The notes under the pieces: model-generated
Told to the model about the DNA's origin: nothing
The model's database searches: none
Seen by the model: the letters and a program-made list of their open reading frames with translations, nothing else
Shown here: positions 18 through 25,105 of the stretch, piece by piece
Layout of the letters: each line of letters opens with the position of its first letter
How positions within the stretch are numbered: position 1 is the first letter of the stretch
Position numbers and translations under genes: made by a program
NCBI GenBank assembly: GCA_027030245.1
Contig: JALVFE010000032.1
Coordinates: 124,001 to 188,000, forward strand
Origin: Melioribacteraceae bacterium
GTDB lineage: Bacteria > Bacteroidota > Ignavibacteria > Ignavibacteriales > Melioribacteraceae
Direction: 5' to 3'
Length of the DNA stretch: 64,000 nt

Positions 18-45
18 TGTCACTTTTAATGTTGAAGTGCCACTA
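18..45 (+). promoter_or_regulatory. Promoter-like element P1 (TGTCACTTTT-N14-ACTA)
   Basis: TGTCACTTTT at 18-27, exactly 14 bases, then ACTA at 42-45, about 50 bases before the start codon of the DUF5666 gene. Three other intergenic sites (5132-5159 minus, 5730-5757, 10208-10235) show the same two boxes with the same spacing. The boxes would be the -35 and -10 of an alternative sigma factor; the factor encoded at 5169-5729 is the obvious candidate (inference). Confidence 0.65.
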
Positions 46-94
46 TATACTTGAGGACAAAGGAAACACCACAAAAAATAATTAGGAGGAACAA

Positions 95-2284
95 ATGACA
101 AATGAAAATGCCAAAACATTTTTAAGCTTTTTAATGATGTTTATTATTTTCTTTATGACAAGTACTATATTTGCCGATGAAGATATCGAAGTTAAGGGAT
201 ATGTCACCGAAATCGGGGATAATTATTTCGTACTTCAGAACTACAAATTCTATGTTGACTCATCAACAGAGTTTGAAGGAAATGATGACTCCAACTTCAA
301 CTTTTCGTCACTTCGTGTAAATGACTATGTTAAAGTCAAAGGCAAGCTATTGTCCGCTGGAAATTATCTTGCAGTTTCGGTTGAACTGGAAGACAATCAT
401 GATAATGATGACAAAGATGAATTAGAACTTAAAGGATATGTAACTGAAATCGGGGATAATTATTTCGTACTTCAGAACTACAAATTCTACGTTGACTCAT
501 CAACAGAGTTTGAAGGAAATGATGACTCCAATTTCAACTTTTCGTCACTTCGCGTAAATGACTTTGTCAAAGTCAAAGGCAAACTATTATCCGATGGAAA
601 TTATCTTGCAGTTTCGGTAAAACTGAAAGACATCCATGATGACGAATTTGAAATTGAAGGAATTGTTGATGGTGTCGGTAACAATCAAATAACGGTATCC
701 GGCTTTCTATTTTATATCACACCCAATACCAAGTTCAAAGCTGAAGATAATTCGCATATTGATTTTTCGGACATCTCAACAGGAATGCATGTGAAAATTA
801 AGGGATTTAATAATTCCGATAATTCTTACACAGCTACAAAAGTTAAAGTAAAAGATTTGTATGATGAGAACGAAATGGAAATTTCCGGAGTAATCTCGGA
901 AATCGGTACAAATACTTTTAAAGTTTCAGGAATGCAGTTTTATGTTAATAACTCTACAATCATTAAACATCACTCGGACTTACTACTTCCTTTTAGCTCG
1001 CTTACAGTTGGTATGTTAGTAGAAGTGAAAGCAATTACACAAAATAACGGCTCATTACTTGCTACAAAGGTAAAAATAGAAGACAACCATGATTTAGATG
1101 AAGAAATTGAAATCACCGCACAAATCGAAAATATTAACAATCTTTTTATTACGGTAGGTGGCATAACATTTAAGATCGACTCTTATACGGAAATACTTGA
1201 CGACAACAGTTTTCCAGTTCCGTTTTCTTCGCTTCAACAAGGAATGTTAGTTAAAGTTAAAGGTTATAGACAGACCGACGGAAGTGTGTTGGCGGTAAAA
1301 ATCAAAATAGAAGATTTCTTTAGAGACGATTTAGAACTGAAAGGAAGAATTGAAGCATTGGGAAATGATTTGATTACAGTTGCCGGTAAAACTTTCTCCG
1401 TAAACCAACAGACTTTGGTATTTGATCATAATCAAAATCCAATTCCGTTTTCTTCCCTTTCTGTAGGATTAATTGTAGAAATAAAAGGAAAAACAAATTC
1501 ATCCGGAAATCTAACCGCAGTAAAAATTAAAATTGAAGACGAGGAAGATCTGGAATTATACGGATCAATCACGGCATTATTCGATAACCGTTTTGAAGTT
1601 GGGAACAATATAATCTTAGTAAACGAAAATACCGTTGTTTTGAATTATCAAGCTCAAGTCATCAACTATTCCGATTTAAACGTTGGAATGATGGTGGAAG
1701 TTAAAATGACTAAAAATGCCGACGGTTCATTTATGGCACTTCGCATCAAGATAGAGAACAGTCCCGGCATGTCAAAAATTCACGGGTTAGTTGATGATAA
1801 TTCAAACGGTTTTATAACGGTTGCATTAACCCGCTTTGGATTAAATTCGAATGAGACAGTACTCAGCGCCAATTATAAACGTATTAATATTTCCGATGTA
1901 AAAAAGGGAGATGAAGTTATTTTATGGGCGGAGAAAAATCAGAACGGGAACAAACAAGTTATACAAATCCAAAAAATTAATGACTCGATTACCGGAGTTG
2001 AAAATTATGGGAAAATTAAAAACGATTTTATACTTGAGCAAAATTATCCTAATCCGTTTAACCCAAGCACAGTAATTAGTTTTAGCATAAGAAAGTCCGG
2101 TGTAGTAAAACTTTCCGTATATAACGCAATCGGCCAAAAAATAGCCGACTTACTTAACAAACATCTCGAATCCGGAAAATACAAAATCAATTTTGATGCC
2201 CGGGGTATTGCATCCGGAATTTACTTCTACAGTTTGGACGTCGGTGGAAAAATTCAAACAAAGAAAATGATTTTACTTCGATAA
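95..2284 (+). CDS. Secreted DUF5666-repeat protein with T9SS sorting domain
   Basis: A 729-residue secreted protein. It has an N-terminal hydrophobic signal segment (about residues 8-27), then eight or so tandem beta-rich units of about 75-80 residues. Each unit has the pattern G-x-(V/I)-x-x-(I/L)-G-x-N-x-(F/I)-x-V, an FSSL-x-V-G-M/D-x-V-x-V-K-G turn and a closing K-(V/I)-K-(V/I)-E-D. This is the DUF5666 pattern, whose function is unknown. The last 75 residues are a type IX secretion sorting domain (YPNPFNPS, then YNAIGQ, then KKMILLR), so it should be exported and surface-attached or released. The first two units are nearly identical in DNA (period 237 bases), indicating a recent duplication. 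Start chosen from AGGAGG at 84-89. Promoter element P1 lies just upstream. Confidence 0.85.
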   Translation: MTNENAKTFLSFLMMFIIFFMTSTIFADEDIEVKGYVTEIGDNYFVLQNYKFYVDSSTEFEGNDDSNFNFSSLRVNDYVKVKGKLLSAGNYLAVSVELEDNHDNDDKDELELKGYVTEIGDNYFVLQNYKFYVDSSTEFEGNDDSNFNFSSLRVNDFVKVKGKLLSDGNYLAVSVKLKDIHDDEFEIEGIVDGVGNNQITVSGFLFYITPNTKFKAEDNSHIDFSDISTGMHVKIKGFNNSDNSYTATKVKVKDLYDENEMEISGVISEIGTNTFKVSGMQFYVNNSTIIKHHSDLLLPFSSLTVGMLVEVKAITQNNGSLLATKVKIEDNHDLDEEIEITAQIENINNLFITVGGITFKIDSYTEILDDNSFPVPFSSLQQGMLVKVKGYRQTDGSVLAVKIKIEDFFRDDLELKGRIEALGNDLITVAGKTFSVNQQTLVFDHNQNPIPFSSLSVGLIVEIKGKTNSSGNLTAVKIKIEDEEDLELYGSITALFDNRFEVGNNIILVNENTVVLNYQAQVINYSDLNVGMMVEVKMTKNADGSFMALRIKIENSPGMSKIHGLVDDNSNGFITVALTRFGLNSNETVLSANYKRINISDVKKGDEVILWAEKNQNGNKQVIQIQKINDSITGVENYGKIKNDFILEQNYPNPFNPSTVISFSIRKSGVVKLSVYNAIGQKIADLLNKHLESGKYKINFDARGIASGIYFYSLDVGGKIQTKKMILLR

Positions 2285-2303
2285 CCGAACTTAACCGAAT
2301 TCA

Positions 2304-2323
2304 GAGGAGCCGTACGGCTCCTC
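2304..2323 (+). terminator. Perfect 20-base palindrome after the DUF5666 gene
   Basis: GAGGAGCCGT is followed directly by its reverse complement. It begins 20 bases after the stop codon and 24 bases before the next small gene. There is no T-run after it, so it may be a weak or partial terminator or an mRNA 3'-end stabiliser rather than a classical intrinsic terminator. Confidence 0.5.
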
Positions 2324-2346
2324 AATAAATTAAAGAGGATTTCGTT

Positions 2347-2523
2347 ATGAATAAATCGAGGCAAATATTAGCAACCCGAAAACATTGCATAGATTCAAGC
2401 AATTACGTAAAAGTAAAAATTGCGAGCACTACAAGTGGTAATATGGCTACCGGCTACGGTGTAAACTGGGAAAGTGCTCTTAGAAATGCAATCGATCATT
2501 ATAAAAAACAATACGGCCACTAG
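2347..2523 (+). CDS. 58-residue basic small protein, unknown
   Basis: A short open frame with a plausible ribosome site (AGAGGA, 2334-2339). The 58-residue product begins MNKSRQILATRKHC and ends HYKKQYGH. It is basic, has no signal peptide or membrane segment, and contains a central VKVKIAST strand followed by a probable helix (WESALRNAIDHYKK). This strand-helix layout resembles small HicB-like or DUF-type folds, but I do not recognise the family. It sits between a hairpin and a lipoprotein gene. Its codon use resembles its neighbours, which supports a real gene, but the evidence is only the frame, the ribosome site and composition. Confidence 0.5.
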   Translation: MNKSRQILATRKHCIDSSNYVKVKIASTTSGNMATGYGVNWESALRNAIDHYKKQYGH

Positions 2524-2623
2524 AAAAATTTGGCAATTTTAATAGACGAATAAATTACCTTTCACTTATTGCTATCATTCCAAACTATTTGTAACTTATT
2601 TTAAATAATCAAACGGAGGAGCA

Positions 2624-3334
2624 ATGAAATTACTAAGTAATTTGATTCCGTTAATATATATTTTAATTCTTACATTGACCACATGCAGTGAACGGAAAGA
2701 GCAAAATTCCGTTACAACGGAAAGACCTGCAAAGGAACTTACCGTTGCACAGAAAATTGCAAATGTTTACGGCACCGGTTCATTCGATAAAGTTAATTCC
2801 ATAAAATTTACTTTTAATGTACAGAAAGGCGAAAAGCAAGTTCACAGAACGTGGTTTTGGGAACCAAAAACAGGATTAGTTAAATTTCTTTCTTACGGAA
2901 AAGACAAACCATTTACATACCTCCGCAATCAATTATCCGAAAATCCCACCGACGAATTAAAAAACATCGATGCCAAATTCATAAACGACCAGTATTGGTT
3001 ATTGTTTCCGCTTCATTTGGTAATGGACGAAAATGTATCCGTAAAATTAGAACCGGGATTACATAAACTACCCATTGGTGAAGGGCAAGCACGACTCGTA
3101 ACAGTTGAATATTCGGGAAACAAAGGCTATACACCAAACGACCGTTATGAATTATACATCGACGATAATTATAAAATTGTTCAGTGGATATACAGACGGA
3201 ATAATTCGCCTACTCCTACAAGATTAACAAAATGGGAAAATTACAATAAGATCGGTCCCCTTTACTTATCATTGAACAGGCCCGGGAAAGACGGCAGTTT
3301 CAGGGTTTGGTTTACGGGTGTGGGAGTAAAATAA
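2624..3334 (+). CDS. Lipoprotein of unknown function
   Basis: A 236-residue protein with a clear lipoprotein signal: hydrophobic stretch LIPLIYILILTL, then the lipobox TTC with Cys22 as lipidated residue. The mature part has alternating strands (FTFNVQKGEKQVHRTWFWEP, later RYELYIDDNYKIVQWIYRR) resembling the open beta-sheet of LolA/outer-membrane lipoprotein-sorting folds. No catalytic motif is visible. The start has a strong ribosome site (GGAGG, 2612-2616). It is monocistronic in appearance, with a convergent T9SS gene downstream. Assignment beyond lipoprotein is uncertain; a LolA-like carrier or DUF6503-like protein are possibilities. Confidence 0.7.
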   Translation: MKLLSNLIPLIYILILTLTTCSERKEQNSVTTERPAKELTVAQKIANVYGTGSFDKVNSIKFTFNVQKGEKQVHRTWFWEPKTGLVKFLSYGKDKPFTYLRNQLSENPTDELKNIDAKFINDQYWLLFPLHLVMDENVSVKLEPGLHKLPIGEGQARLVTVEYSGNKGYTPNDRYELYIDDNYKIVQWIYRRNNSPTPTRLTKWENYNKIGPLYLSLNRPGKDGSFRVWFTGVGVK

Positions 3335-3451
3335 TATATGCCGTTTTCATTAATTTAGAGTTTAAGTCCGGAGTTTAATAAGAAAAAAACAATATCGGTA
3401 ATCTTTACTAATTCGGCAGTGTATGAATCAACAATAATGAATTGCTCTTTC

Positions 3452-5101
3452 CTATTTCAAAAGAATCATCTTCTTGGTTTTCACAAAGCCGTTAATACTT
3501 AACTGGTAAACATAGATTCCACTTGGAAGATTTCTAGCATTAAATTCCACACTGTAAGTTCCGGGTGCTTGTTTTTTGTCAACCAGAGTTTTTATTTCCC
3601 TACCTAACAAATCGTAAATTTTTAGGGACACTAACCCTCCTGGTTTCCCCCCTTTAACAAAGGGGGGATTAAGGGGGGGTTGTGGAATTGAATATTTAAT
3701 TGTGGTTGTGGGATTAAACGGATTCGGATAATTCTGATATAATTCAAATTTATCAACAACCTTATGGTTATTTCTTTTTACCGATGTCAAAACAAAATTC
3801 AATTTTGCATTAGTATAGATTGTTTGTGTGGGATTAATATCAAAAATTGAAGAACTGACCGCATCTTTGTAACCTATACTCTGTGCAATTAACCGGTAGC
3901 GCCCGTAAGGTAAACGATTAATCTCAAAAGATCCGTCTTTTAATGGGATTGTATAATAAAACACTTCCTGGTAATCTACATTTTCTGCAAATACTATTAT
4001 ATCGCTAAATTGCAAAGCGCTGTTTGTATCCGTAGAATCAATATATAGTTTACCGCTTATTATTCCCCCGCCGTATGAAGAATCCCTTTTCAAAACTATA
4101 GTTTGGTTCTCTACGGTATTTTGAATAAAAACGGAATCTGTTTGCTGCCAGAAAATAGCGGGTTGTGAATTATTACTTGTATAAGCGGGCAAATAAAAAT
4201 CCGAGAATGCCTGAATGTAATAATAACCCGGCAAAATTATATCGTCTATTACAAAGGTGCCGTCACTTTTAATTTGACCTGTATAAGATTTTATCGAATC
4301 GGCTTCTTCTATCAATGCCGGTGAAAGTTTTGTTGGGGTATGCTTTCCTTTTCTTACAACAATAATACCTTTTCTAACAACTGCGTTCGATACAAAATCG
4401 ATTACCCTTCCGCTTACTTTGTTGGCAGCCGCAAGTTTGGGAACCAACCTAATGTTTACATTAATTGTGGAATCTTTATCCACTTCAAGAATATCCGCAT
4501 TGTATGAATCAAATTTATTATTAAAAAAATTCAAATAATAACCATCTTTTTCCGTTACAATAATATAATCTCCTTCCGGTAAACTTTTGGAGAATTGTCC
4601 TTGGGAATCGGTAAATGCGGAATCGAGTAAATACGTACGTTCATAATAGAAAGAAATTTTTGCATTCGGTACGGTACCGTTCGAATCGGTAACGGTTCCG
4701 GTTACTATGCCGGATTTATCATCATCGTCAAAATATTTTATTTTAATTTTTAAATCCTCAAATTCATTATAATCCGAATAAAATATTTTCATGGTATCGG
4801 TTGTATCTTGTGAGGTTACCAAAAAATAATTAGCCAAAAGGCAATCCATTACAATAGTATCTCCGGGTACAATAGTTAACGGATATTTCCATTCCCTGTC
4901 AAATCTCACAAAGTAGAGATCTTTATTATACCGTATTGTATCTATTATTAAGTCCTGATCACCTTTGTTGATAAGCAACACATTTTCAAGCCGGTTGAAA
5001 ACATCCTCAAATTCAATTTTATCAGGTTCCAGATCCAGCTCCGGCTGGGCATATACGGAAAAAGTTATAATCAGAATCAAGCTTATGGCAATTTTTTTCA
5101 T
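3452..5101 (-). CDS. Secreted T9SS protein with carboxypeptidase-regulatory-like domains
   Basis: A 549-residue exported protein with a signal peptide MKKIAISLILIITFSVYA. Next comes a choice-of-anchor-like immunoglobulin domain (residues 20-125) and three beta-sandwich units of the carboxypeptidase-regulatory/Cna-B type (G-x-V-x-G-x-V-x-D... D-G-x-F... L-P-x-G-x-Y). A T9SS sorting domain (YPNPFNPTTTI to KKMILLK) closes the protein. It has no catalytic domain, so a structural or adhesive surface role is likely. In the sorting domain a loop of about 16 extra residues (PPLNPPFVKGGKPGG) is encoded by an inserted palindromic repeat (3633-3681). There is no Shine-Dalgarno. Promoter element P2 lies about 30 bases upstream, so this gene probably belongs to the regulon of the adjacent divergent sigma factor. 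Confidence 0.82.
   Translation of the reverse strand: MKKIAISLILIITFSVYAQPELDLEPDKIEFEDVFNRLENVLLINKGDQDLIIDTIRYNKDLYFVRFDREWKYPLTIVPGDTIVMDCLLANYFLVTSQDTTDTMKIFYSDYNEFEDLKIKIKYFDDDDKSGIVTGTVTDSNGTVPNAKISFYYERTYLLDSAFTDSQGQFSKSLPEGDYIIVTEKDGYYLNFFNNKFDSYNADILEVDKDSTINVNIRLVPKLAAANKVSGRVIDFVSNAVVRKGIIVVRKGKHTPTKLSPALIEEADSIKSYTGQIKSDGTFVIDDIILPGYYYIQAFSDFYLPAYTSNNSQPAIFWQQTDSVFIQNTVENQTIVLKRDSSYGGGIISGKLYIDSTDTNSALQFSDIIVFAENVDYQEVFYYTIPLKDGSFEINRLPYGRYRLIAQSIGYKDAVSSSIFDINPTQTIYTNAKLNFVLTSVKRNNHKVVDKFELYQNYPNPFNPTTTIKYSIPQPPLNPPFVKGGKPGGLVSLKIYDLLGREIKTLVDKKQAPGTYSVEFNARNLPSGIYVYQLSINGFVKTKKMILLK
3633..3681. repeat. Palindromic CCCTTT-AAC-AAAGGG repeat inside a T9SS gene
   Basis: Core CCCCCCTTT (3647-3655), AAC, AAAGGGGGG (3659-3667), flanked by tails AACCCTCCTGGTTT and ATTAAGGGGGGGTT that are roughly reverse complements of each other. 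The whole 49-base unit is one long imperfect palindrome read through in frame by the minus-strand gene. The same core and tail flank the DUF559 gene at 18.3-18.8 kb. Confidence 0.85.
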
Positions 5102-5102
5102 A

Positions 5103-5132
5103 TTGACTTTAATACTTATGAGTTTTTATATT
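5103..5132 (+). promoter_or_regulatory. Possible housekeeping-type promoter for the sigma gene
   Basis: TTGACT (5103-5108), 18 bases, TATATT (5127-5132), 36 bases before the sigma factor start codon. It overlaps the divergent P2 element, so the two directions may compete. Weak evidence: one match in AT-rich DNA. Confidence 0.3.
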
Positions 5133-5159
5133 AGTTCGGAATTTAAACAAAAAGTGACA
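5132..5159 (-). promoter_or_regulatory. Promoter-like element P2 (TGTCACTTTT-N14-ACTA), minus strand
   Basis: On the minus strand TGTCACTTTT covers 5159-5150 and ACTA covers 5135-5132, with 14 bases between. It lies in the 67-base divergent gap and points at the T9SS gene whose start codon is at 5101. Same architecture as P1, P3 and P4. Confidence 0.65.
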
Positions 5160-5168
5160 TTTTAATTC

Positions 5169-5729
5169 ATGAAAAAAAATCCCCCCACTTTTCACGGTTT
5201 TTCAAAAGAAGAATTGACAAAATTACTTAAGGAAGCAAAAAACGGTAATTCCGGCTCTTTTGAAAAGTTATCCCATAAAATAAGGGATATTTCTTACTCC
5301 TATTTTTTTTCCAAATATAATTTAAGAAAAATTAATTCTAAAGAAGATGTGGAGGATTTAACACAAAACGTATATATAACTTTTGCCGAACAATTTCAAA
5401 ATGTCAATAATATCGAAAACTGGTTAAGGCGGGTTCTGTTTCTTACTTTTATAAACTGGTATGGCAAATCACAAAAAAATAAAGCTTTCGAACTCGACGA
5501 GACTTATTATATAAACGAATCTTCGTACGATTCACACGGGCATCTCGATTTGGATAAAATCATTGATTTAATGAATAAACTCTCACAGCAAAAACAAAAA
5601 ATATTGAAACTGCGTTTTTGGGGTGAATTAAAATTTTCGGAAATTGCCAAGAAACTCAATAAATCGGAAGCAGCGGTGAAGAAAATGTTTTACCGAACTA
5701 TCGAAGAACTAAAAGAAAAACTTGAATGA
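5169..5729 (+). CDS. ECF-like sigma-70 family RNA polymerase sigma factor
   Basis: A 186-residue two-domain sigma factor. Region 2 lies at about residues 30-100 (DVEDLTQNVYITFAEQF is the core-binding and -10 recognition helix area). A short linker leads to region 4 at 128-186, with the helix-turn-helix LKFSEIAKKLNKSEAAVKKM and the preceding LKLRFWGE. There is no region 1 or 3, as expected for ECF factors. No Shine-Dalgarno precedes the start. The next gene encodes a membrane anti-sigma factor and the one after a TPR-CHAT protein; the stop codon overlaps the first base of promoter P3. P1-P4 probably define its promoter specificity (inference). Family assignment is firm, the subgroup is not. 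Confidence 0.9.
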   Translation: MKKNPPTFHGFSKEELTKLLKEAKNGNSGSFEKLSHKIRDISYSYFFSKYNLRKINSKEDVEDLTQNVYITFAEQFQNVNNIENWLRRVLFLTFINWYGKSQKNKAFELDETYYINESSYDSHGHLDLDKIIDLMNKLSQQKQKILKLRFWGELKFSEIAKKLNKSEAAVKKMFYRTIEELKEKLE

Positions 5730-5757
5730 TGTCACTTTTAGTAAACTATTAACACTA
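5730..5757 (+). promoter_or_regulatory. Promoter-like element P3 (TGTCACTTTT-N14-ACTA)
   Basis: TGTCACTTTT at 5730-5739 and ACTA at 5754-5757 with 14 bases between, beginning at the sigma factor's stop codon and ending 31 bases before the anti-sigma start. It would transcribe the anti-sigma and CHAT genes from a sigma-dependent promoter inside the cluster, giving negative feedback through the anti-sigma factor. Confidence 0.65.
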
Positions 5758-5788
5758 TTCAATTAGTAAAAGGAAAAGAAAAGAGATT

Positions 5789-6763
5789 ATGAAATTAAGT
5801 GATTTTTTCTATTTGTTAGATAAAGAAACATTAACGGCGGAAGAAAAGGAGAAGCTGGAAAAATTTTTTTCCGAAAACCGCGATGCAGATAAAATTGCAC
5901 GTATTTATCGTAATGTGAAAGAAGCTGCTACGAAAGGTTCTCATTTGGATACCGATATTATTGCCGACTACGTGCTTTACAAAAATAATTCCCTTGACGA
6001 ACCGGAATTGTTAATCCGTCTGTTGCCAAAAATTGAGAATCATTTAAGAGAATGCAAACAATGCGAAACCGAATTTAAATTAATGATGAGCGAATATGAA
6101 TCCGTTGATGATTTCATCGGCAAAAGTATTACATCTACAGCAGAAACCGTCAAAGCAAAGGATTCCGGACTTTCTTTATGGCAGAGCAGTAAACAGAAGC
6201 AAATCCTTAAAAGCGTAGTTTATTCTTTTGCCGCATTAATTCTGATATACTTTTCCGTTTTTGCCGTAGTCAATATGTCAACCCCAGCCTACAAAAAAGA
6301 TTTGGTCGTTTTCGACGGCAGTCAGAAATTCGTTACACGCGGAAGGGTGACAACCGAATTCCAAAAAGGAATAGCGGAACTCGATAAGCACCATTTTGAA
6401 AAAGCGATAGAAAACCTTAAAAAGGATATTCAGGATCATCCGGGGGATAAAACAATTTTTTATACCTACTTTATATTGGGTAAAACATACTTGGAATCTG
6501 CCAAATATAATGTTTTAGGTTTGTTCGAGAAATACGACGAAGAGAAAATTGAAAATGCAATCGATTCTTTTAAAAAATCCATAGAAAAAAATACCGCTCC
6601 CGAATTCGAACATTTAAATCTGGATTCGTATTACTACATTGCCCGCGCGTTACTATTATTAGATAGAAAAGACGAAGCAATAAAATACTTAAAAATCGTT
6701 ATCGATAAAAAAGGTAGCTTTAAGAACGAAGCGGAAGAAATTCTGAGCTCTCTTAAAAGCTAA
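5789..6763 (+). CDS. Membrane anti-sigma factor with periplasmic TPR domain
   Basis: A 324-residue protein. The N-terminal cytoplasmic part (1-140) carries an H-x3-C-x2-C signature (His85, Cys89, Cys92) like zinc-containing anti-sigma domains. A single membrane helix follows at about 142-163 (VVYSFAALILIYFSVFAVV), preceded by lysines that keep the N terminus inside. The C-terminal periplasmic part (about 185-324) has TPR-like helices (FQKGIAELDKHHFEKAIENL; YYIARALLLLDRKDEAIKYL). Placement right after the sigma factor gene supports the anti-sigma role. The large periplasmic TPR domain is a likely sensing or docking surface for the TPR-CHAT protein encoded 6 bases downstream. Start chosen from AGGAAAAG upstream. 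Confidence 0.8.
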   Translation: MKLSDFFYLLDKETLTAEEKEKLEKFFSENRDADKIARIYRNVKEAATKGSHLDTDIIADYVLYKNNSLDEPELLIRLLPKIENHLRECKQCETEFKLMMSEYESVDDFIGKSITSTAETVKAKDSGLSLWQSSKQKQILKSVVYSFAALILIYFSVFAVVNMSTPAYKKDLVVFDGSQKFVTRGRVTTEFQKGIAELDKHHFEKAIENLKKDIQDHPGDKTIFYTYFILGKTYLESAKYNVLGLFEKYDEEKIENAIDSFKKSIEKNTAPEFEHLNLDSYYYIARALLLLDRKDEAIKYLKIVIDKKGSFKNEAEEILSSLKS

Positions 6764-6769
6764 TTAAAA

Positions 6770-9700
6770 ATGAAAGTCATTACAAAACATATATTTTTTT
6801 TTAATGTTATTATTTCCTTGCTCCTCTTTAATCCGCTTGCCGGTAAGGAAATAAGTGCATCCGGGCATTCTTTGGAAAAAGTCAAACGGGAAATTCTTTC
6901 AAACGGATTGACCACAAAAAATTTACTCGATTACCATTATTTCCTTTTTAACGGCAATGCTAATCCCGGCGAAGAATTGAATTTTGTAAAATCGCTGCCC
7001 GCAAACTACAAGCGTGATATTTTAACAGGGTTTATCTTTAAAAAGAAAGCGGACTTTGAAGCCGAGTATAACTCATTGTTAAAAGCATTAAATAATTTAC
7101 CGGAAATCCCCGTTTATTATGAAGAGTTGGTGTTTACTTCTAAAATATTAGGAAAACTCGATGACCTAAAAAAACGGATTAAACAAACCGGCATTCAAAA
7201 AGAAACTTTATTGTTTGCTCAAGCATTAATTGAATATAACAAAGGAAATTTTTCCGGCGCCACAAAAATTTTTAAACAACTAATAAAATCCGGTTTTCAA
7301 GATTTCAGAGTTTACTATTGGTATTCTTATTCTCTCAGAAATTTAGGTGAATATCCAACCGCCTTGAAACAATTGAAAATTGCCGAACGGAAAATACCGG
7401 CTCCGGAATTCCTTCCCGGTATATTAAATGCCGAAGGTTCGCTTTACTACCTTTCGGGAAAATACGATGAAGCCGAGCGTTTATACGAACAAGCTAAAAA
7501 ACTGGCAGGTAAATATTTTAACAAAATAGAATTAGTAAAATCTTTAATTAATCTTGCAATTATTACCGATGATACTGGTAACTTGAAGAAAGCACGCAAT
7601 CTGTTTTACGAAGCTCTTGCTCTTGCCGTAAAAATTAATTCTTTGGAATTACGTGCTTTGGTGCATTCGGAATTAGGTGTATCTTATACTTTCGATAACC
7701 GCTTGATAGATGCTGAAAAACATTATAATAAAAGTCTGGAATTATTTTCCAAACTAAGAGATAAAAACAGACTGGCAATACTTTATGCAAATCTCGGGAA
7801 TATTTACACCAACATTTCAAATTACAAATTCGCTCTGGAGTCTTTTCAAAAGGGGCTCGAATTTGCTTCGGAAAACAAGCGGGCACGTATTCTTAATTTA
7901 AAAGGTATTGCCGATGTTTATTCGAACATTGCAAATTATTCGAAAGCTTTGGAATATTACAGACGGGCAAAAGATTTAGCCGACGAAATCAAAGAGATCT
8001 CGATGAAAGCGGAAATCGAGGAAAGTTTCGGAATACTTGAGTTAAACCTGGGTTTGCCCAAACAAGCATTGAAATATTTCGCCCGTGCGGAAAACATTGC
8101 ACGAACTTTGGATAACGGATTTTTTATTGCCGGACTTTATCACAAATTCGGTGTTGCTTATTCATTACTCGATAGTTTAAGCAAAGCCGAACAATATTTT
8201 TTATCCGCCAATAAAATCAACAAAGCCAACGGCGATATTTACAACCAACTAACGGTTAATCTGGAACTTGCGGAAATTTATTTAAAGCAAAACAAAACCG
8301 GAAAAGCTTCACGTCTTTTGAAAATTACCGGAAAGAAATGCCGGGAATATGATTTAAAAAACTTACTAACAAAACAATATTTATTATCTGCGGAATTATA
8401 CAAGATTGACGGTAATTATAAAAAAGCAGAAGAATTATTGAAAACCGCAGAAATGTTAGCAAAGGAAATTCCCGATTACACTGCACAAATTGCGGCGAAC
8501 TATGAACTGGGTAAAATGTTTTACAATTTGGGTAAACTGCAAACCGCGGAAAAATATTTTCTAAAAGCTACCGATATTTTGGAAAATGTGAGCAAGCCGT
8601 TATTCGAAAAAAAAGAAATTCAAATATCTTTTTATTCAAATTTTAATGATGTTTACAATGATTTGGCAAAACTTTATTTACAAAGCAAGAAAGATACTTC
8701 GGCATTTGAACTAATAGATTTTCAAAGGGCTCATAATACATCGCAAAATTTGAATAATATAAAAATTCTTTCCCGGATAAACGACGAAAATAAACTAAAA
8801 AGACTTTACGAGTTGGACTGGATGATATCTTCCGGTGTTTATTCCGGTTTGGATTCACTTAAAAAAGAGTATGCCCGGCTTAAAAACAAATTGATAAAAG
8901 AAAATCCGGGCATTGAGAAGTATTTGGGATTTAAAACAAAAAATGCTTTAGACAAAATACAAAACAATCTGGATTCAACTGAAAATTTTGTGTCTTATTT
9001 TATCACAGATTATTTCACCCAAATATTTCATGTTTCTAAATCCGGTTTTCACTCAATCAGAGTTGATGTTTCGAGAGACTACATCGATAAACTAATTAAA
9101 GGAATTTCTCCTTTTTATAAAACCGGAAAACAAAAGGAAGAAATATTTTTCAATCAAGATTTGTTTTCGTTTAATGCCGAAGCAGCCAATAAACTTTATA
9201 ACATATTGGTAAAACCCGTTTCGGAAAAACTGGGGAAAAACACAAAGATAATATTTTCCTTACCACCGGATATGCTAAAAATCCCCATGGAATTTCTTGT
9301 TACAAATTATAAGCCCCAAGAAAGTCCGTACAACTATGATAAACTTGAGTTTCTTGTTAACTCTTATTCTATATCTTACGCACCTTCAGGAAACACTTTG
9401 ATAACATTGAGAGAGAGGTCTTCATCCTTGAATAAAACAAATTTACTTATCGGAAATTCGAAAATTGAAAACAAGAATTTCATTTACAGTATCCGGGGTT
9501 CGCTGTTAGAAAATAAAGAAACTTTAAGAGACATAAATCTGGAATCCTTGGAATTTTCGGGGAAGGAAATTGAGGAAATTAATTCATATTTGGGTAATAC
9601 GGAAATTTTTATGCAAGATAACGCCACGGAATACAACTTTAAGAAATTCGCTTCGTCCAGTAAAATTATTCATTTGTCCACTCATTCCTTCCTTTACAAA

Positions 9701-10198
9701 AATCAACCTTTAATCGTATTTTCCAAGGGAGGCGGAAAAGAAGACGGATTATTGGAACGGGGGGAAATTTTACAACTTAAACTTTCCGCAGATATGGTAG
9801 TGCTAAGTTCTTGTAAATCCGGTTTGGGAGAAATAGACAAATCGGAAGGCGTATTGGGAATGCAAAAATCTTTTATTGATGCCGGAGCCAAAAGCGTTGT
9901 AGTTTCATTGTGGGATGTAAACGACAGGTACACAGCAATTCTGATGAAATATTTTTATAAATACCTAAACGAAGGCTTCGACAAATCCGTGGCTTTAAAA
10001 CTTGCCAAGAACGAATTTATCAAAAACGATTCACCTAATCCTTATTATTGGGCTGCGTTTGTACTTACAGGTAACACTTCTAAAATTCATTTACGAAGCG
10101 CAAAACTGTTCTCTATCGATCGTGTCGTTATTATCATTATTTTTTTAGGGCTAATCTTCTTCTTTGTTAATCTTTTCCGGGGAAAAAATTCCCACTGA
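6770..10198 (+). CDS. Periplasmic TPR-CHAT (caspase-like) protein, membrane-anchored
   Basis: A 1142-residue protein. It has an N-terminal signal segment (residues 8-24), about ten TPR repeats (roughly 145-650; examples FSGATKIFKQLIKSG, LIDAEKHYNKSLELF) and a CHAT protease domain (about 820-1105). A C-terminal membrane helix follows (1118-1135, VVIIIIFLGLIFFFVNLF) with a short basic tail. The CHAT dyad is present: His972 in HLSTHS and Cys1015 in VVLSSCKSG, followed by the family motif GVLGMQKSFIDAGAKSVVVSLW-x-VND. Catalysis is therefore expected. Topology puts the TPR and CHAT domains in the periplasm, on the same side as the TPR domain of the anti-sigma factor. CHAT proteins with TPRs cleave protein partners in other systems; here the neighbour anti-sigma is a plausible substrate (inference). 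Confidence 0.88.
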   Translation: MKVITKHIFFFNVIISLLLFNPLAGKEISASGHSLEKVKREILSNGLTTKNLLDYHYFLFNGNANPGEELNFVKSLPANYKRDILTGFIFKKKADFEAEYNSLLKALNNLPEIPVYYEELVFTSKILGKLDDLKKRIKQTGIQKETLLFAQALIEYNKGNFSGATKIFKQLIKSGFQDFRVYYWYSYSLRNLGEYPTALKQLKIAERKIPAPEFLPGILNAEGSLYYLSGKYDEAERLYEQAKKLAGKYFNKIELVKSLINLAIITDDTGNLKKARNLFYEALALAVKINSLELRALVHSELGVSYTFDNRLIDAEKHYNKSLELFSKLRDKNRLAILYANLGNIYTNISNYKFALESFQKGLEFASENKRARILNLKGIADVYSNIANYSKALEYYRRAKDLADEIKEISMKAEIEESFGILELNLGLPKQALKYFARAENIARTLDNGFFIAGLYHKFGVAYSLLDSLSKAEQYFLSANKINKANGDIYNQLTVNLELAEIYLKQNKTGKASRLLKITGKKCREYDLKNLLTKQYLLSAELYKIDGNYKKAEELLKTAEMLAKEIPDYTAQIAANYELGKMFYNLGKLQTAEKYFLKATDILENVSKPLFEKKEIQISFYSNFNDVYNDLAKLYLQSKKDTSAFELIDFQRAHNTSQNLNNIKILSRINDENKLKRLYELDWMISSGVYSGLDSLKKEYARLKNKLIKENPGIEKYLGFKTKNALDKIQNNLDSTENFVSYFITDYFTQIFHVSKSGFHSIRVDVSRDYIDKLIKGISPFYKTGKQKEEIFFNQDLFSFNAEAANKLYNILVKPVSEKLGKNTKIIFSLPPDMLKIPMEFLVTNYKPQESPYNYDKLEFLVNSYSISYAPSGNTLITLRERSSSLNKTNLLIGNSKIENKNFIYSIRGSLLENKETLRDINLESLEFSGKEIEEINSYLGNTEIFMQDNATEYNFKKFASSSKIIHLSTHSFLYKNQPLIVFSKGGGKEDGLLERGEILQLKLSADMVVLSSCKSGLGEIDKSEGVLGMQKSFIDAGAKSVVVSLWDVNDRYTAILMKYFYKYLNEGFDKSVALKLAKNEFIKNDSPNPYYWAAFVLTGNTSKIHLRSAKLFSIDRVVIIIIFLGLIFFFVNLFRGKNSH

Positions 10199-10207
10199 AA
10201 TTTTTTT

Positions 10208-10235
10208 TGTCACTTTTTTCAAATTTCTCATACTA
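10208..10235 (+). promoter_or_regulatory. Promoter-like element P4 (TGTCACTTTT-N14-ACTA)
   Basis: TGTCACTTTT at 10208-10217, 14 bases, ACTA at 10232-10235, about 118 bases before the first gene of the redox operon (10354). Longer leader than the other three copies. No other strong promoter is obvious in this 155-base gap. Confidence 0.6.
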
Positions 10236-10568: not shown

Positions 10569-12206
10569 ATGAAAAAAAATATAATAGCTTTAGTTACAAT
10601 TGGAATTTTTTCCATTGGCATTACTTTACTTTCCAGGGGGTTCCGTGCGAACGAAATACCGAACGGAAGCGTTAATAGTTGTGCTAACTGTCATGTAAAT
10701 CCCGCAGGCGGGGGACCAAGAGATAATTTTGGTAAGCTTGTGGGAACGAAATTCCTAACCGAACCGGGTTCTGCAGGACATGTTGTTTGGGGACCTTTAC
10801 TGGCAAGCCTGGATGCCGATAACGACGGAGTTTCAAACGGTGAGGAATTACAAGATCCGTTCGGTCAATGGACGCAAGGTCAACCTAACCCGGGAAATTC
10901 AAGTATGGTAACTTTACCCGGAGATGCAACCAGTAACGCACTTTCCACTTTAACCGTCTCTTTTTCCGATATGACCCCGCATGTAGGACAGATGTTACAG
11001 TTAAGGGTAATTGACAAAAACAATATGAAAGAAGTCGGGAGAACATCCGTTGCATCAATTACACAAGCTTTTGACGTTCAGCTCGATGTTATTCTGCAAG
11101 GGCACGATTACTACATCGACTTTTTCGCGGATCATAACGGCAACGGATTATATGATGCACCACCGACAGATCATGCTTGGAGAATTGAACTAAACGACGC
11201 ACAAGGAAACGACAATGTTGCGTTTGCACATAATACTAATTTTACGGATATAGATTGGGATTATATGCTAACCGTAAATTTCACCGGTATGACACCGCAT
11301 GTAGGTCAGTTATTGGAATTGAGAGTGGAAGATGATGTTACCAATCAAGAGGTTGGAAGAACACGAATCGAGTTTATACCTTCCGCTGATTTTACTGTGA
11401 ATATTCCGGGTATAAAACTTGGCAAACAATACAAAGTGGAATTTTATGCGGATCACAATGGTAACGGTTTATATGATTCGCCACCGACTGACCACGCTTG
11501 GAAAATTCAATTCGAAAACAACTCCGGCGACGTAACGGAAACCTTTGCTCACAATACCGATTTTACCGATGTCGGTTGGGATTATTTATACACGCTTAAC
11601 TTCATCGGTATGAATCCGCATGTCGGACAAATGCTCGAAATGAGAATTGTGCGTAAAGATAATAGTGAGGAAATCGGTCGGATAAAAGTCGATGCAATTC
11701 CTTCACCAAACTTTTCCGTTTCTATTCCCGGCATCGAATTAAACCATGATTATAATGTTGATTTTTATGCGGATCATAACGGCAACGGATTATATGATGC
11801 ACCACCGACTGATCACGCTTGGAGATTAACGCTTAACAGCTCTACCGGAAATTACGCGGAAAACTTTTCGCACAATACAAATTTCACAGATATTCAGTGG
11901 CCCGGCGTTACCGGTATATTGGATGAAATCGCAAGAATACCCAACAAATACATACTTTTACAAAATTACCCGAATCCGTTTAATCCGGCTACCAACATCG
12001 CGTTTAACCTGAAAGAACCGGGTTTTGTAACTTTGAAAATATACGATTTGTTAGGACAGGAAGTAATAACACTTGTAAACAAAGAACTACCGGCGGGTTT
12101 GCATAATATTTCTTTCGATGCAAGCGGTTTACAAAGCGGAACATACATCTACCGGATTCAATCCCAAAACTTTACGGCTGCAAAGAAAATGGTTCTTTTA
12201 AAATAA
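10569..12206 (+). CDS. Monoheme T9SS protein with three EF-like repeats
   Basis: A 545-residue exported protein. The signal segment is followed by a single heme c site CANCH (Cys38, Cys41, His42) and an EF-hand-like loop DADNDGVSNGEE. Three units of about 115 residues come next, each beginning with F-x-(D/G)-M-(T/N)-PHVGQ and ending with an ADHNGNGLYD-x-PPTDHAW loop, whose D-x-N-x-N-x-x-x-D spacing suggests calcium binding. A T9SS sorting domain (YPNPFNPAT to KKMVLLK) ends the protein. It looks like a surface or secreted redox protein. Histidines near each loop (DHAW, FAHNT) are invariant between the units and could bind metal. I do not recognise the repeat family. It is in an operon with Rieske, globin and YceI genes, though a terminator hairpin follows it. 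Confidence 0.8.
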   Translation: MKKNIIALVTIGIFSIGITLLSRGFRANEIPNGSVNSCANCHVNPAGGGPRDNFGKLVGTKFLTEPGSAGHVVWGPLLASLDADNDGVSNGEELQDPFGQWTQGQPNPGNSSMVTLPGDATSNALSTLTVSFSDMTPHVGQMLQLRVIDKNNMKEVGRTSVASITQAFDVQLDVILQGHDYYIDFFADHNGNGLYDAPPTDHAWRIELNDAQGNDNVAFAHNTNFTDIDWDYMLTVNFTGMTPHVGQLLELRVEDDVTNQEVGRTRIEFIPSADFTVNIPGIKLGKQYKVEFYADHNGNGLYDSPPTDHAWKIQFENNSGDVTETFAHNTDFTDVGWDYLYTLNFIGMNPHVGQMLEMRIVRKDNSEEIGRIKVDAIPSPNFSVSIPGIELNHDYNVDFYADHNGNGLYDAPPTDHAWRLTLNSSTGNYAENFSHNTNFTDIQWPGVTGILDEIARIPNKYILLQNYPNPFNPATNIAFNLKEPGFVTLKIYDLLGQEVITLVNKELPAGLHNISFDASGLQSGTYIYRIQSQNFTAAKKMVLLK

Positions 12207-15275: not shown

Positions 15276-15815
15276 ATGACAATGAAAAAATTGTTTAATC
15301 CCGGACTTTCGGAAAAGGAAAAGAAGGAATTCGAAGCTTTGGCGAAAGCCAATTTGAAAAAGGCTTATTTCACTGCGTTGGGTTTTCTGGGTTCGCGCGA
15401 CGATGCGGTCGAGATTTCCCAAGAAGCATTTTTACGGGCTTATGTTAATTTCAAAAAATTCGACCGGTCAAAAAATTTTTTCGCATGGTATTACAGAATA
15501 TTGAAAAATCTTTGTCTTAATTTTATTAGGGATTCGCGTGCAAAGAAAACCGAGAACTTTCTGGAACCGGAAAAATTGGAATCTGAGGAAACCGATCCGG
15601 CACTTAAAACCGAAAATAACGAATTGCACGAACAAATTGAAAACGTAATGAACAAACTGAACTTCAAAGACCGTGAAATAATTATCTTAAAAGAATTTCA
15701 AAATATGAGTTATAAAGAAATTTCGGAAATATTAAACATTCCGTTAGGCACGGTTATGTCAAGGTTATTTTACGCAAGGAAAAAATTAGCCGAAAAATTG
15801 AAAGGGGTGATTTAA
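15276..15815 (+). CDS. ECF RNA polymerase sigma factor
   Basis: A 179-residue ECF sigma factor. Region 2 (about 25-90) contains SRDDAVEISQEAFLRAYVNF and the aromatic WYYRILKNLCLNFIRD. Region 4 (about 115-175) contains LNFKDREIIILKEFQNMSYKEIS and LGTVMSRLFYARKKL. It is much closer to the classical RpoE/SigW pattern than the first sigma factor of this window. The start could be the ATG at 15276 or the one at 15282. Its stop overlaps the anti-sigma start by 1 base (TAATG), indicating translational coupling in a three-gene operon. Confidence 0.92.
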   Translation: MTMKKLFNPGLSEKEKKEFEALAKANLKKAYFTALGFLGSRDDAVEISQEAFLRAYVNFKKFDRSKNFFAWYYRILKNLCLNFIRDSRAKKTENFLEPEKLESEETDPALKTENNELHEQIENVMNKLNFKDREIIILKEFQNMSYKEISEILNIPLGTVMSRLFYARKKLAEKLKGVI

Positions 15816-16258
15816 TGCACGATAAATTCATTCTTTTGCTACAGAAATATTTGGATAACGAACTGACAGAAAACGAAAAGAAAGAATTCGATGAACTGAT
15901 AAATACAAACGAAGAATTCAGAAAGGAATTCGAAGAGCAAAAAAAAGTAAAGGAGGTTCTTACCAAGATGAAACTTAAAAATCCTTCGAAAGAATTTTGG
16001 GATGCATATTGGACGGGACTCTATAACAAAATCGAAAGAGGAATTGCATGGATTGCGATATCCATCGGCGCTATTATTTTGATTGCATACGCAAGTATTC
16101 AAGCGGTGAAAGTATTTTTCGGCGATATGGAAACTCCGTTGATTGTAAAAATCGGAACCGTTGCATTAGTATTCGGATTTCTCGTTCTGCTGTTTTCGGT
16201 TATCAGAGAAAAATTTTTCGTATCCAAACACGATAAATACAAGGAGATTCAAAGATGA
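15815..16258 (+). CDS. Membrane anti-sigma factor-like protein, two helices
   Basis: A 147-residue protein whose N terminus (FILLLQKYLDNELTENEKKEFDELI) matches the first helices of anti-sigma factors (a zf-HC2-like fold) but lacks the zinc cysteines. Two membrane helices follow, at about 74-94 (WIAISIGAIILIAYASIQAV) and 110-128 (VKIGTVALVFGFLVLLFSV), with a basic C-terminal tail. With both termini inside there is almost no periplasmic sensor domain. Coupling to the sigma gene by a 1-base overlap supports the role. It overlaps the YbjQ gene by 4 bases. Confidence 0.8.
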   Translation: MHDKFILLLQKYLDNELTENEKKEFDELINTNEEFRKEFEEQKKVKEVLTKMKLKNPSKEFWDAYWTGLYNKIERGIAWIAISIGAIILIAYASIQAVKVFFGDMETPLIVKIGTVALVFGFLVLLFSVIREKFFVSKHDKYKEIQR

Positions 16259-18771: not shown

Positions 18772-18915
18772 AATAATTTTATACAAATTAAAATCAAACA
18801 TGTCATTTCCAAAAGAAACAAGCGGTTTGGGATTTTTTACGTTTACTTAACTATTCAAAGAAATTTCGTATAATTCGTTATCTTTTATAAATTGAATTAA
18901 ACAATATTGGTAAGT

Positions 18916-20037
18916 ATGTCCGAGCCGGTTTTGAAATATTTGAGTTACGAACCAATTAGGGACGTTGTATTTGTGTTAGGTGCGGGAGCTTCGCATCCGG
19001 ATGGCGTTCCGCTGCAAAGGCATATTCTTCCCATGATTCTTTCCGGGGGAATTAAAGATATAGACGAATCCGAAATGGGTATGCAAGTAAAAAGGTTTAT
19101 AGAGCAAAATTTCACTTATAACGCCGAAGCAAATCAGTATCCGCAACTCGAAGCGGTATTCGGATTTCTCGATTATTTTATTCAACGCAACGAAAGTCTG
19201 AACGCCATTTACAATCATAATGAGATAATTAAGATAAAAGAGTATCTCATAAAACTTATTCATTACATCGTAAATTTAAGAACCGAACAGAAAAGCAAAT
19301 ATTATCATCTATTTTGGGAAGGTATAATCGAAAACAATACGAACGTTTCCATCATTACACTTAATTACGATACGCTGCTCGAGCAAGCATTTGACTTTCT
19401 TTTTAAAAAGCACGGATACATCGACTATTGCTTTCACTTAATGAATTACGACAAAATAGACGCACTTAAAAATTTTAATTTTTGGATAAATCCGCGTGAA
19501 CCCGTAAAAGTGGACGAAAACGATAATCCGGTCGCATTTAAAATAATAAAAGTGCACGGAAGCCTTAATTGGAAATATTGCAATTGCTGCAATCAGACTT
19601 TACTTACGCCGTGGGACAGACACATCGATTTACACCGCGGTAAATTTATGGGCTTTACGTATCCTGACAAAGAAGAATACGAATACAAATGCCCCTTGGA
19701 CGGAACCGAATTCCAAACTTTGATTATGCCGCCTTCTTATGTGAAATCGCTCGATCAACCCGTTATTATTCAACTTTTAGCAGAAGCCGCAAGGGAAATA
19801 AGAGATGCCAAGCGGATTGTATTTATCGGTTATTCCCTTTCTGATGCGGATGTTCACATTAAAGCTTTATTTAAAAAACAAATTAAACCCTCGACGGAAG
19901 TAATTGTAGTGAATACGAGAAATTCACCTACGCTTAAAAATAAATACTATGCCATTTCAAAAAATATTACATTTAAAAATCTATCATTTGAAGAAATGGT
20001 AACTCATAAAGAAATAATGAAAGAATTACTTAATTAA
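18916..20037 (+). CDS. SIR2-like domain protein (possible defence NADase)
   Basis: A 373-residue cytoplasmic protein with the SIR2 fold signatures in order: GAGAS (22-26), TLNYD (148-152), KVHGS with candidate catalytic His214, a cysteine group (Cys222, Cys224, Cys225 and Cys259) that could bind zinc, and FIGYSLSDADVHIK near the C terminus for NAD binding. Stand-alone bacterial SIR2-like proteins of this type often act in anti-phage systems by degrading NAD. Whether this one is a deacetylase or an NADase cannot be told from sequence. No partner effector such as Argonaute or HerA is adjacent; the next genes are a PadR regulator and two small proteins. The ATG at 18916 is preferred over an upstream TTG. 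Confidence 0.85.
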   Translation: MSEPVLKYLSYEPIRDVVFVLGAGASHPDGVPLQRHILPMILSGGIKDIDESEMGMQVKRFIEQNFTYNAEANQYPQLEAVFGFLDYFIQRNESLNAIYNHNEIIKIKEYLIKLIHYIVNLRTEQKSKYYHLFWEGIIENNTNVSIITLNYDTLLEQAFDFLFKKHGYIDYCFHLMNYDKIDALKNFNFWINPREPVKVDENDNPVAFKIIKVHGSLNWKYCNCCNQTLLTPWDRHIDLHRGKFMGFTYPDKEEYEYKCPLDGTEFQTLIMPPSYVKSLDQPVIIQLLAEAAREIRDAKRIVFIGYSLSDADVHIKALFKKQIKPSTEVIVVNTRNSPTLKNKYYAISKNITFKNLSFEEMVTHKEIMKELLN

Positions 20038-25011: not shown

Positions 25012-25105
25012 TATCAAACCGGAAAATTATTTGCAAAAAAGTTTATAAATCCAACTTCAAAATAACAGTTACGGAAAGATTAACAAACAGAAAAATCAAC
25101 ACAAT

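Follow-up and report, generated by a model that had tools for sequence, protein, structure and literature searches.

In a 64,000-nucleotide stretch of a Melioribacteraceae bacterium genome (assembly GCA_027030245.1, contig JALVFE010000032.1, positions 124,001 to 188,000 of the forward strand), here referred to as the window, we identified a three-gene module encoding an extracytoplasmic function (ECF) type sigma factor, a membrane anti-sigma factor and a TPR-CHAT protein. Judged from its sequence, the module is real, conserved and provided with a common promoter motif, and the best reading of it is that the CHAT protein is probably the site-1 protease of the anti-sigma factor. The three intact open reading frames (ORFs) lie on the + strand at 5169..5729 (sigma factor, 186 aa), 5789..6763 (anti-sigma factor, 324 aa) and 6770..10198 (TPR-CHAT protein, 1142 aa, with a signal-peptide-like start and a C-terminal membrane helix). 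A preliminary description of this DNA had listed the same three consecutive genes and had suggested that the site-1 cut could come from a caspase-like protease in the periplasm; the coordinates proved exact and the domains were matched, and the suggested role is supported by the gene order, a conserved linker arginine, the catalytic dyad and the covariation of residue D1052.

The sigma factor, which was recognized from its ORF, its domain matches and an ortholog alignment, scored above cut-off with TIGR02937 (62.2 bits, cut-off 42.9) and Sigma70_r4_2 (43.6 bits), with region 2 under the Pfam cut-off (15.4 vs 24). To its predicted membrane partner, delimited by the ORF, its orthologs and an AlphaFold2 model, we assign the anti-sigma role, that is, the putative binding and inhibition of the sigma factor. 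The cytoplasmic domain of this protein carries H85-x3-C89-x2-C92 (6041..6064, +), as previously described for the window protein, and the ortholog alignment showed this motif in all orthologs covering that region except one (L024), where the claim fails. Pfam zf-HC2 gave no match in the window anti-sigma factor. A single membrane helix (6215..6277, +, residues ~143-163, from hydropathy and the model) is present in 11/11 aligned anti-sigma factors; the membrane topology of the module proteins is, throughout, a prediction from hydropathy only. The periplasmic TPR domain (6353..6757, +, residues ~189-323) scored under the Pfam cut-offs and above that of NF047558 (35.0 vs 32). AlphaFold2 gave this C-terminal domain a TPR fold with helices from 189 to 323 and a mean predicted local distance difference test score of 80.6, and the Foldseek matches of the model in PDB were mostly TPR proteins.

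The predicted structure of the third protein has a long TPR superhelix ahead of a full CHAT domain (residues 804-1102, 9179..10075, +), which matched PF12770 with 204.6 bits and the folds of separase and of the TPR-CHAT protein of Craspase. The dyad residues H972 (9683..9685, +) and C1015 (9812..9814, +), described as intact beforehand, are indeed so in the alignment, and they are invariant in 11/11 aligned CHATs (the window protein and ten others, two of these near-identical). The same 11 proteins all have the C-terminal membrane helix (10124..10180, + in the window, residues ~1119-1137), and 9 of them have an N-terminal hydrophobic stretch above threshold. Profile, His-Cys dyad and caspase/separase fold place the protein as a likely member of clan CD and a putative protease.

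Clear anti-sigma orthologs were detected in 13/79 genomes of the family, with the own genome counted, and therefore the module is not a product of chance; the G032 copy contains an internal stop, and two more weak matches (E 3e-4 and 5e-4) are interrupted by several stops. Among the genome contigs, the matches belonged to Melioribacteraceae and other Ignavibacteria-type metagenome-assembled genomes, with one weak match in Saprospiraceae (L075). The order sigma, anti-sigma, TPR-CHAT is kept in L018, L019, L022-L024 and L026-L029, of which L028 and L029 hardly differ; in L025 a type-IX-sorted gene is inserted between sigma and anti-sigma, and L020 and L021 stop inside CHAT at contig ends. Six further loci (L062, L064, L068, L069 and the contig-cut L073 and L074) show the same order over the part that they cover, and as their outer neighbours differ, the module behaves as a unit. 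Searching other genomes for the gene order, which the preliminary description had proposed as a check, thus showed it to be conserved in the family, with looser versions across Bacteroidota.

These looser versions came from a phylum survey of 118 genomes, 56 of which had CHAT at E<=1e-20. The 79 survey loci taken cover most of the listed matches, and 7 of them gave no CHAT with our own profile. An ECF sigma factor was found within 4 kb of 32/75 survey CHAT ORFs, and 31 of these 32 had a single-helix protein fitting the partner rule, which is a loose one that accepts any single-helix protein near CHAT on the strand of the sigma factor. TPR models matched at E<0.01 in 6 of the 8 survey partners tested, mostly under cut-offs.

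The candidate cut site is R184|G185 within R184-G185-R186 (6338..6346, +), inside the predicted coil 171-188 that joins the membrane helix to the TPR domain in the anti-sigma model. This RGR is invariant in 17/17 orthologs (entropy 0 vs a linker mean of 2.29 bits). In the survey, an Arg 15-28 residues past the helix was present in 32/35 CHAT-linked proteins vs 5/23 controls (p=6.7e-8), and an Arg followed by G, S, A or N (R-small) in 29/35 vs 4/23 (p=1.4e-6); both tests are post hoc, since the Arg was noticed there first and tested afterwards. At flanking offsets, CHAT-linked and control proteins had Arg alike. The 23 controls are single-helix proteins downstream of ECF sigma factors, with anti-sigma status unproven for all and with distant CHATs not checked one by one. 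The test kept 35/36 CHAT-linked proteins, as L077_1 is not an anti-sigma factor and was dropped; L120_12 was kept, though it is probably not one either. When the same rule was applied to 40 fresh loci, Arg was found in 8/14 partners (p=0.04).

The linker motif covaries with one residue of the partner CHAT, the one at the position of D1052 (9923..9925, +; alignments and covariation tables). Pooling the pairs under one rule gave 30 pairs of R-small with Asp, none of R-small with non-Asp, 8 of other linkers with Asp and 9 of other linkers with non-Asp (p=1.8e-5; p=5e-4 after 40% clustering). This final table includes L120_12, L272_9 and L289_2, which were absent from an earlier clustering with 10/12 of the sigma-linked hold-out pairs, and it scores L321, with a TR|G one residue beyond the test window, as lacking the Arg motif. 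The His-Cys dyad is kept in 47/47 CHATs of the rule-selected partners. In the first survey, non-Asp residues occurred only in L137 and L150 (2/76 CHAT rows), and both anti-sigma factors have Lys-small instead. Among the hold-out pairs without R-small, the residue at the D1052 position is E, A or S in 5/6 and D in the remaining one (L272). For 20 later loci the prediction was written beforehand, and R-small was found in 7/10 D partners vs 0/2 E partners (sigma-linked); these loci were chosen from families in which sigma neighbours were expected, several of these families being already represented in the hold-out, so that their independence is incomplete and the association rates that they give are biased.

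D1052 stands at a helix start (model residue 1027). In a published separase model, Asp1082 near the start of helix alpha4 is set against the P1-Arg (PMC4626109), and 6/9 clan CD rows in the table of a review cut after Arg or Lys (PMC4357240). By analogy, D1052 may be a residue of the S1 pocket that resembles the modelled separase acid. An S1 role for E841 was also considered and dropped, as the alignment is gapped there in 42/76 survey CHATs. Ten further non-Asp CHATs were noted, of which eight (six Gly, one Ala, one Glu) have no sigma match within three genes and two (L289 and L295) have one. The six with Gly (L273, L274, L278, L279, L292 and L294) are perhaps a separate class of CHATs with other substrates.

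The anti-sigma and CHAT genes also appear to share a promoter. The promoter-like motif TGTCACTTTT-N14-ACTA lies at 5730..5757 (+) before the anti-sigma-CHAT unit, and its consensus TGTC[AC]C-N17/18-ACTA (TGTCAC-N18-ACTA in exact form) was found 5' of the anti-sigma gene in 16/17 loci. In L025, the sole locus without it there, the motif stands at the equivalent place, ahead of the inserted gene. These counts, like that of the linker orthologs, leave out L029, which is near-identical to L028, and they include L020, whose anti-sigma gene has an internal stop and which is not in the linker alignment. The motif also precedes the surface-protein gene in 5/15 loci, and it was found 5' of the sigma gene in 0/17 loci and 5' of the CHAT gene in 0/14. 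In 581,460 bases (both strands) there were 33 sites vs 1.65 on mononucleotide shuffling. The own 3.8-Mb genome has exactly four exact matches, all within 18-10235 of the window, and the exact motif is present in 12/13 module genomes vs 6/66 others (79 genomes; p=4e-9), with a reversed-pattern control at 2/13 vs 14/66. We infer that the sigma factor of the module reads TGTCAC-N18-ACTA. This shared promoter, together with the type-IX-secreted putative targets described below, goes beyond the preliminary description.

Among the six motif genomes outside the module set, G007 has the module split across contigs. A strict coupling of motif and module is disfavoured by G002, where a target-type gene carries the motif and the genome has no anti-sigma match; this type-IX-sorted-looking gene (L151, G002:C71) has no module alongside, and its site is perhaps the relic of a lost module or is read by another sigma factor. 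The four remaining sites fall within or ahead of genes that do not resemble those of the module. Extra copies of the motif were seen in the module genomes G003, G032 and G034 (L033, L041, L043 and L053) before one type-IX-tailed family, and in L043 also before a multicopper-oxidase-like protein (by eye).

The genes, their order, predicted topology, dyad, promoter motif, linker Arg, covariation and an RseP-like gene are established at the level of sequence, and the following sequence of events is proposed around them. The anti-sigma factor would hold the sigma factor at the inner membrane, and the TPR-CHAT protein would be tethered to that membrane too, its catalytic domain lying immediately on the outer side. 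Perhaps in response to a signal received by the TPR domains, CHAT would cut the exposed linker at R184|G185, ~22 residues away from the membrane, so that the anti-sigma factor loses its TPR domain. An RseP-like intramembrane protease would then finish the stub and free the sigma factor; the own genome has an RseP-like M50 frame (452 aa, 181.8 bits) with a putative link to the pathway. The freed sigma factor would act on a small local gene set, namely the anti-sigma-CHAT unit itself, as a feedback, and type-IX-secreted surface proteins.

Several results weigh against this role of CHAT. With 30% single-linkage clusters the covariation falls to p=0.077, and taken sample by sample it has p=0.059 in the survey, where it was tested post hoc, 0.015 in the hold-out and 0.15 in the loci of the written prediction, so that shared ancestry may still contribute. 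In the fresh loci, R-small reached 6/14 vs 4/23 controls (p=0.13, below significance); taken with the count for Arg given above, this means that Arg is enriched in Bacteroidota and not universal, and Met-Ser or Lys-small replaces Arg-small in some partners. The CHAT gene is several genes away or on the opposite strand in many survey loci. A sigma neighbour was more frequent for CHATs with a C-terminal anchor in the survey (26/41 vs 6/34, p=7e-5), and this link was not significant in the hold-out (12/32 vs 2/12, p=0.28) or in the last sample (10/17 vs 3/3, p=0.52); a restriction of sigma pairing to membrane-anchored CHATs, significant in 1/3 samples, was therefore rejected. When one mismatch is allowed, the motif is no rarer in the own genome than its reversed control (6 matches vs 5). 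Finally, HtrA-like proteases encoded in the own genome could make the first cut.

The weaker cluster and single-sample tests suit an explanation at which the linker Arg serves the structure or membrane topology of TPR anti-sigma factors and varies with D1052 through shared ancestry alone, as do the states shared by the related loci L284, L291, L323 and L324. This explanation is compatible with the other alternatives. Against it speak the position-specific enrichment of Arg relative to the control proteins, the result after 40% clustering, and L137 and L150, which pair Lys-small with the only two non-Asp residues of the first survey, and we hold it to be unlikely.

It could also be that CHAT is an output of the pathway, at which the sigma factor induces CHAT together with the anti-sigma factor and CHAT cuts other periplasmic or secreted proteins, e.g. 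the type-IX neighbours. The position of the motif before the anti-sigma-CHAT unit and the steady presence of type-IX-sorted genes beside the module in the family would fit, and a clan CD protease, PorU, also takes part in type IX secretion. Against it, the linker Arg of the anti-sigma factor covaries with D1052 of the partner CHAT, and CHAT recurs near anti-sigma-like proteins across the phylum; this explanation appears less probable still. The least probable one is that site 1 is cut by an HtrA/DegS-type protease, by the textbook DegS-RseA route, and that CHAT only tunes the pathway via its TPRs or by trimming. The own genome has Trypsin_2 matches (3/4 above cut-off), which would fit; against it, such a cut leaves unexplained why the conserved Arg varies with a CHAT residue, and the dyad is kept in 47/47 partner CHATs.

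Known systems resemble the module to different degrees. DdvA (PDB 8rot and 8rw5, entitled a transmembrane anti-sigma factor) is the closest known case, nearer in anatomy than Craspase, and we regard the window module as a split, widespread form of an already known kind of system. It was the first sequence match of the Bacteroidota CHAT profile (E 8.5e-10), with Craspase chains next, and VIA-align superposed 598 residues (Z 21.9, root-mean-square deviation (rmsd) 9.6). The sequence match includes ATHG and LAACEGG, so that DdvA retains both dyad residues, and it sets an Asp against D1052. Judging from the name, it is presumably the DdvA of Myxococcus xanthus, which is described as the cognate anti-sigma factor of the ECF sigma factor DdvS (PMC4374960). 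DdvA is one chain of 991 residues, whereas anti-sigma factor and protease are encoded by separate ORFs in the window and in the ortholog loci read, and both have a membrane helix of their own here.

In Craspase of the type III-E clustered regularly interspaced short palindromic repeats (CRISPR) systems, made of the TPR-CHAT protein Csx29, Csx30 and CASP-sigma, the TPR-CHAT protein is described as cleaving a sigma inhibitor (PMC10028731), and its fold matches that of the window protein (Z 26.2, 548 aligned, rmsd 7.6). The preliminary description had drawn this parallel and had not named DdvA. Craspase is RNA-activated and Cas7-11-linked, unlike the envelope setting of the window module, and joins a cytoplasmic TPR-CHAT protein to a soluble Csx30-type substrate, whereas CHAT and the anti-sigma factor are both predicted to span the membrane here. 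Its orthologs are described with varying cut sites, A|S, L|D and M|K (PMC11106740), and the D1052 position is Ser in the four alignments compared, which are all much the same protein and exclude the D. ishimotonii Csx29. The sequence link of CHAT to Craspase and separase was missed by the family profile A2 and found only with the 26-sequence profile A5. None of the three module proteins had a Cas7-11 (gRAMP) match in PADLOC, and Cas-like ORFs were not noticed by eye in the window or the neighbour loci, with CRISPR arrays and the whole genome not searched. Membership in Craspase was not adopted, given the different predicted topology, the different cut-site chemistry and the lack of a noticed CRISPR partner. 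PADLOC likewise lent no support to a defence role, giving the three proteins only TPR matches and weak CARF/CasR/Csa3/Csx1-type ones, the latter of which we took as spurious.

The best structural match of the protease domain was separase (C50; 5fc2, Z 27.0, 302 aligned, rmsd 3.1), which is described as having Arg at P1, as proposed here (PMC4357240, PMC4626109). Separase is the eukaryotic cohesin protease, and its sequence similarity to CHAT is weak (E about 0.3). The RseA/DegS/RseP and RsiW-type pathways share with our proposal a single-pass anti-sigma factor and an outside cut followed by an intramembrane cut; DegS is a PDZ serine protease, whereas for site 1 we propose a cysteine protease of clan CD. 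ECF54 sigma factors have CHAT proteins in their neighbourhood, with proteolytic control proposed, and are described in PMC8999054 (representative in its table: Geodermatophilus) without an anti-sigma factor, which the window module has. Operons of Myxococcus and others that place a caspase-fold gene beside a sigma-70 gene (PMC3501461) encode metacaspases, not CHAT, a word absent from the main text of that paper. Searches of the open-licence literature found, beyond the papers on Craspase, none that links CHAT with a membrane anti-sigma factor.

We lean towards a general form of the proposed role, at which membrane-tethered, separase-like CHATs in Bacteroidota and Ignavibacteriota form a class of dedicated site-1 proteases of ECF anti-sigma factors, the D1052 pocket and the P1-P1' residues of the linker co-evolve as a pair-specific cutting code, and a local group of type-IX-secreted surface proteins is what the pathway switches on in Ignavibacteria. 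As far as we know, most ECF anti-sigma factors of Bacteroidota have no identified site-1 protease, and most non-CRISPR CHATs have no known substrate. If the proposal is true, one cut site would answer both gaps, caspase/separase-type enzymes would be tied to ordinary bacterial stress signalling, and Craspase and DdvA would look like relatives of a common arrangement.

The remaining three sites of the motif in the window, all from the motif search, precede putative target genes. One at 5132..5159 (-) precedes the divergent gene at 3452..5101 (-), which encodes a type-IX-sorted surface protein with CarboxypepD_reg repeats and a Por_Secre_tail; a type-IX-sorted protein is a steady neighbour of the module in the family loci, and this one is conserved as such. 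Another at 18..45 (+) precedes a gene at 95..2284 (+) for a type-IX-sorted protein with seven DUF5666 repeats (ORF and domain search), a likely target. The last, at 10208..10235 (+), stands before a same-strand gene run starting at ~10354, which includes a further likely target at 10569..12206 (+), a CxxCH-motif protein with a type-IX-tail-like C-terminus (seen by eye, without a domain search). The secreted protein encoded at 23137-25017 has no exact motif, and its start resembles that of a protein beside the module of G003 (L023:9903-11741), which has Golvesin_C and M14_N matches. From the target genes and neighbours, which include type-IX surface and multicopper-oxidase-like genes and, in some genomes, nearby metal-efflux-like genes (by eye), our guess is that the signal is envelope, secretion or metal stress.

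A second CHAT locus was found in the own genome (L030:2398-7002, G000:C20). Its sigma factor is ECF-like (TIGR02937 35.2 bits, under cut-off), its anti-sigma-like protein has H-x3-C-x2-C and a C-terminal part without TPR matches, and its TPR-CHAT gene is convergent and encodes no membrane tail. The same set is present in G051 (L085) and G052 (L089), and Arg-Ser/Asn precedes the C-terminal part of the anti-sigma-like protein (by eye). Within the window, a second ECF sigma gene followed by one for a short membrane anti-sigma-like protein lies at 15276-16258, an ordinary-looking pair with no adjoining CHAT. A SIR2-like protein (PADLOC SIR2 matches) is encoded at 18907-20037, and an ORF with a start much like it, as seen by eye, follows the module region in G008 (L018:13569).

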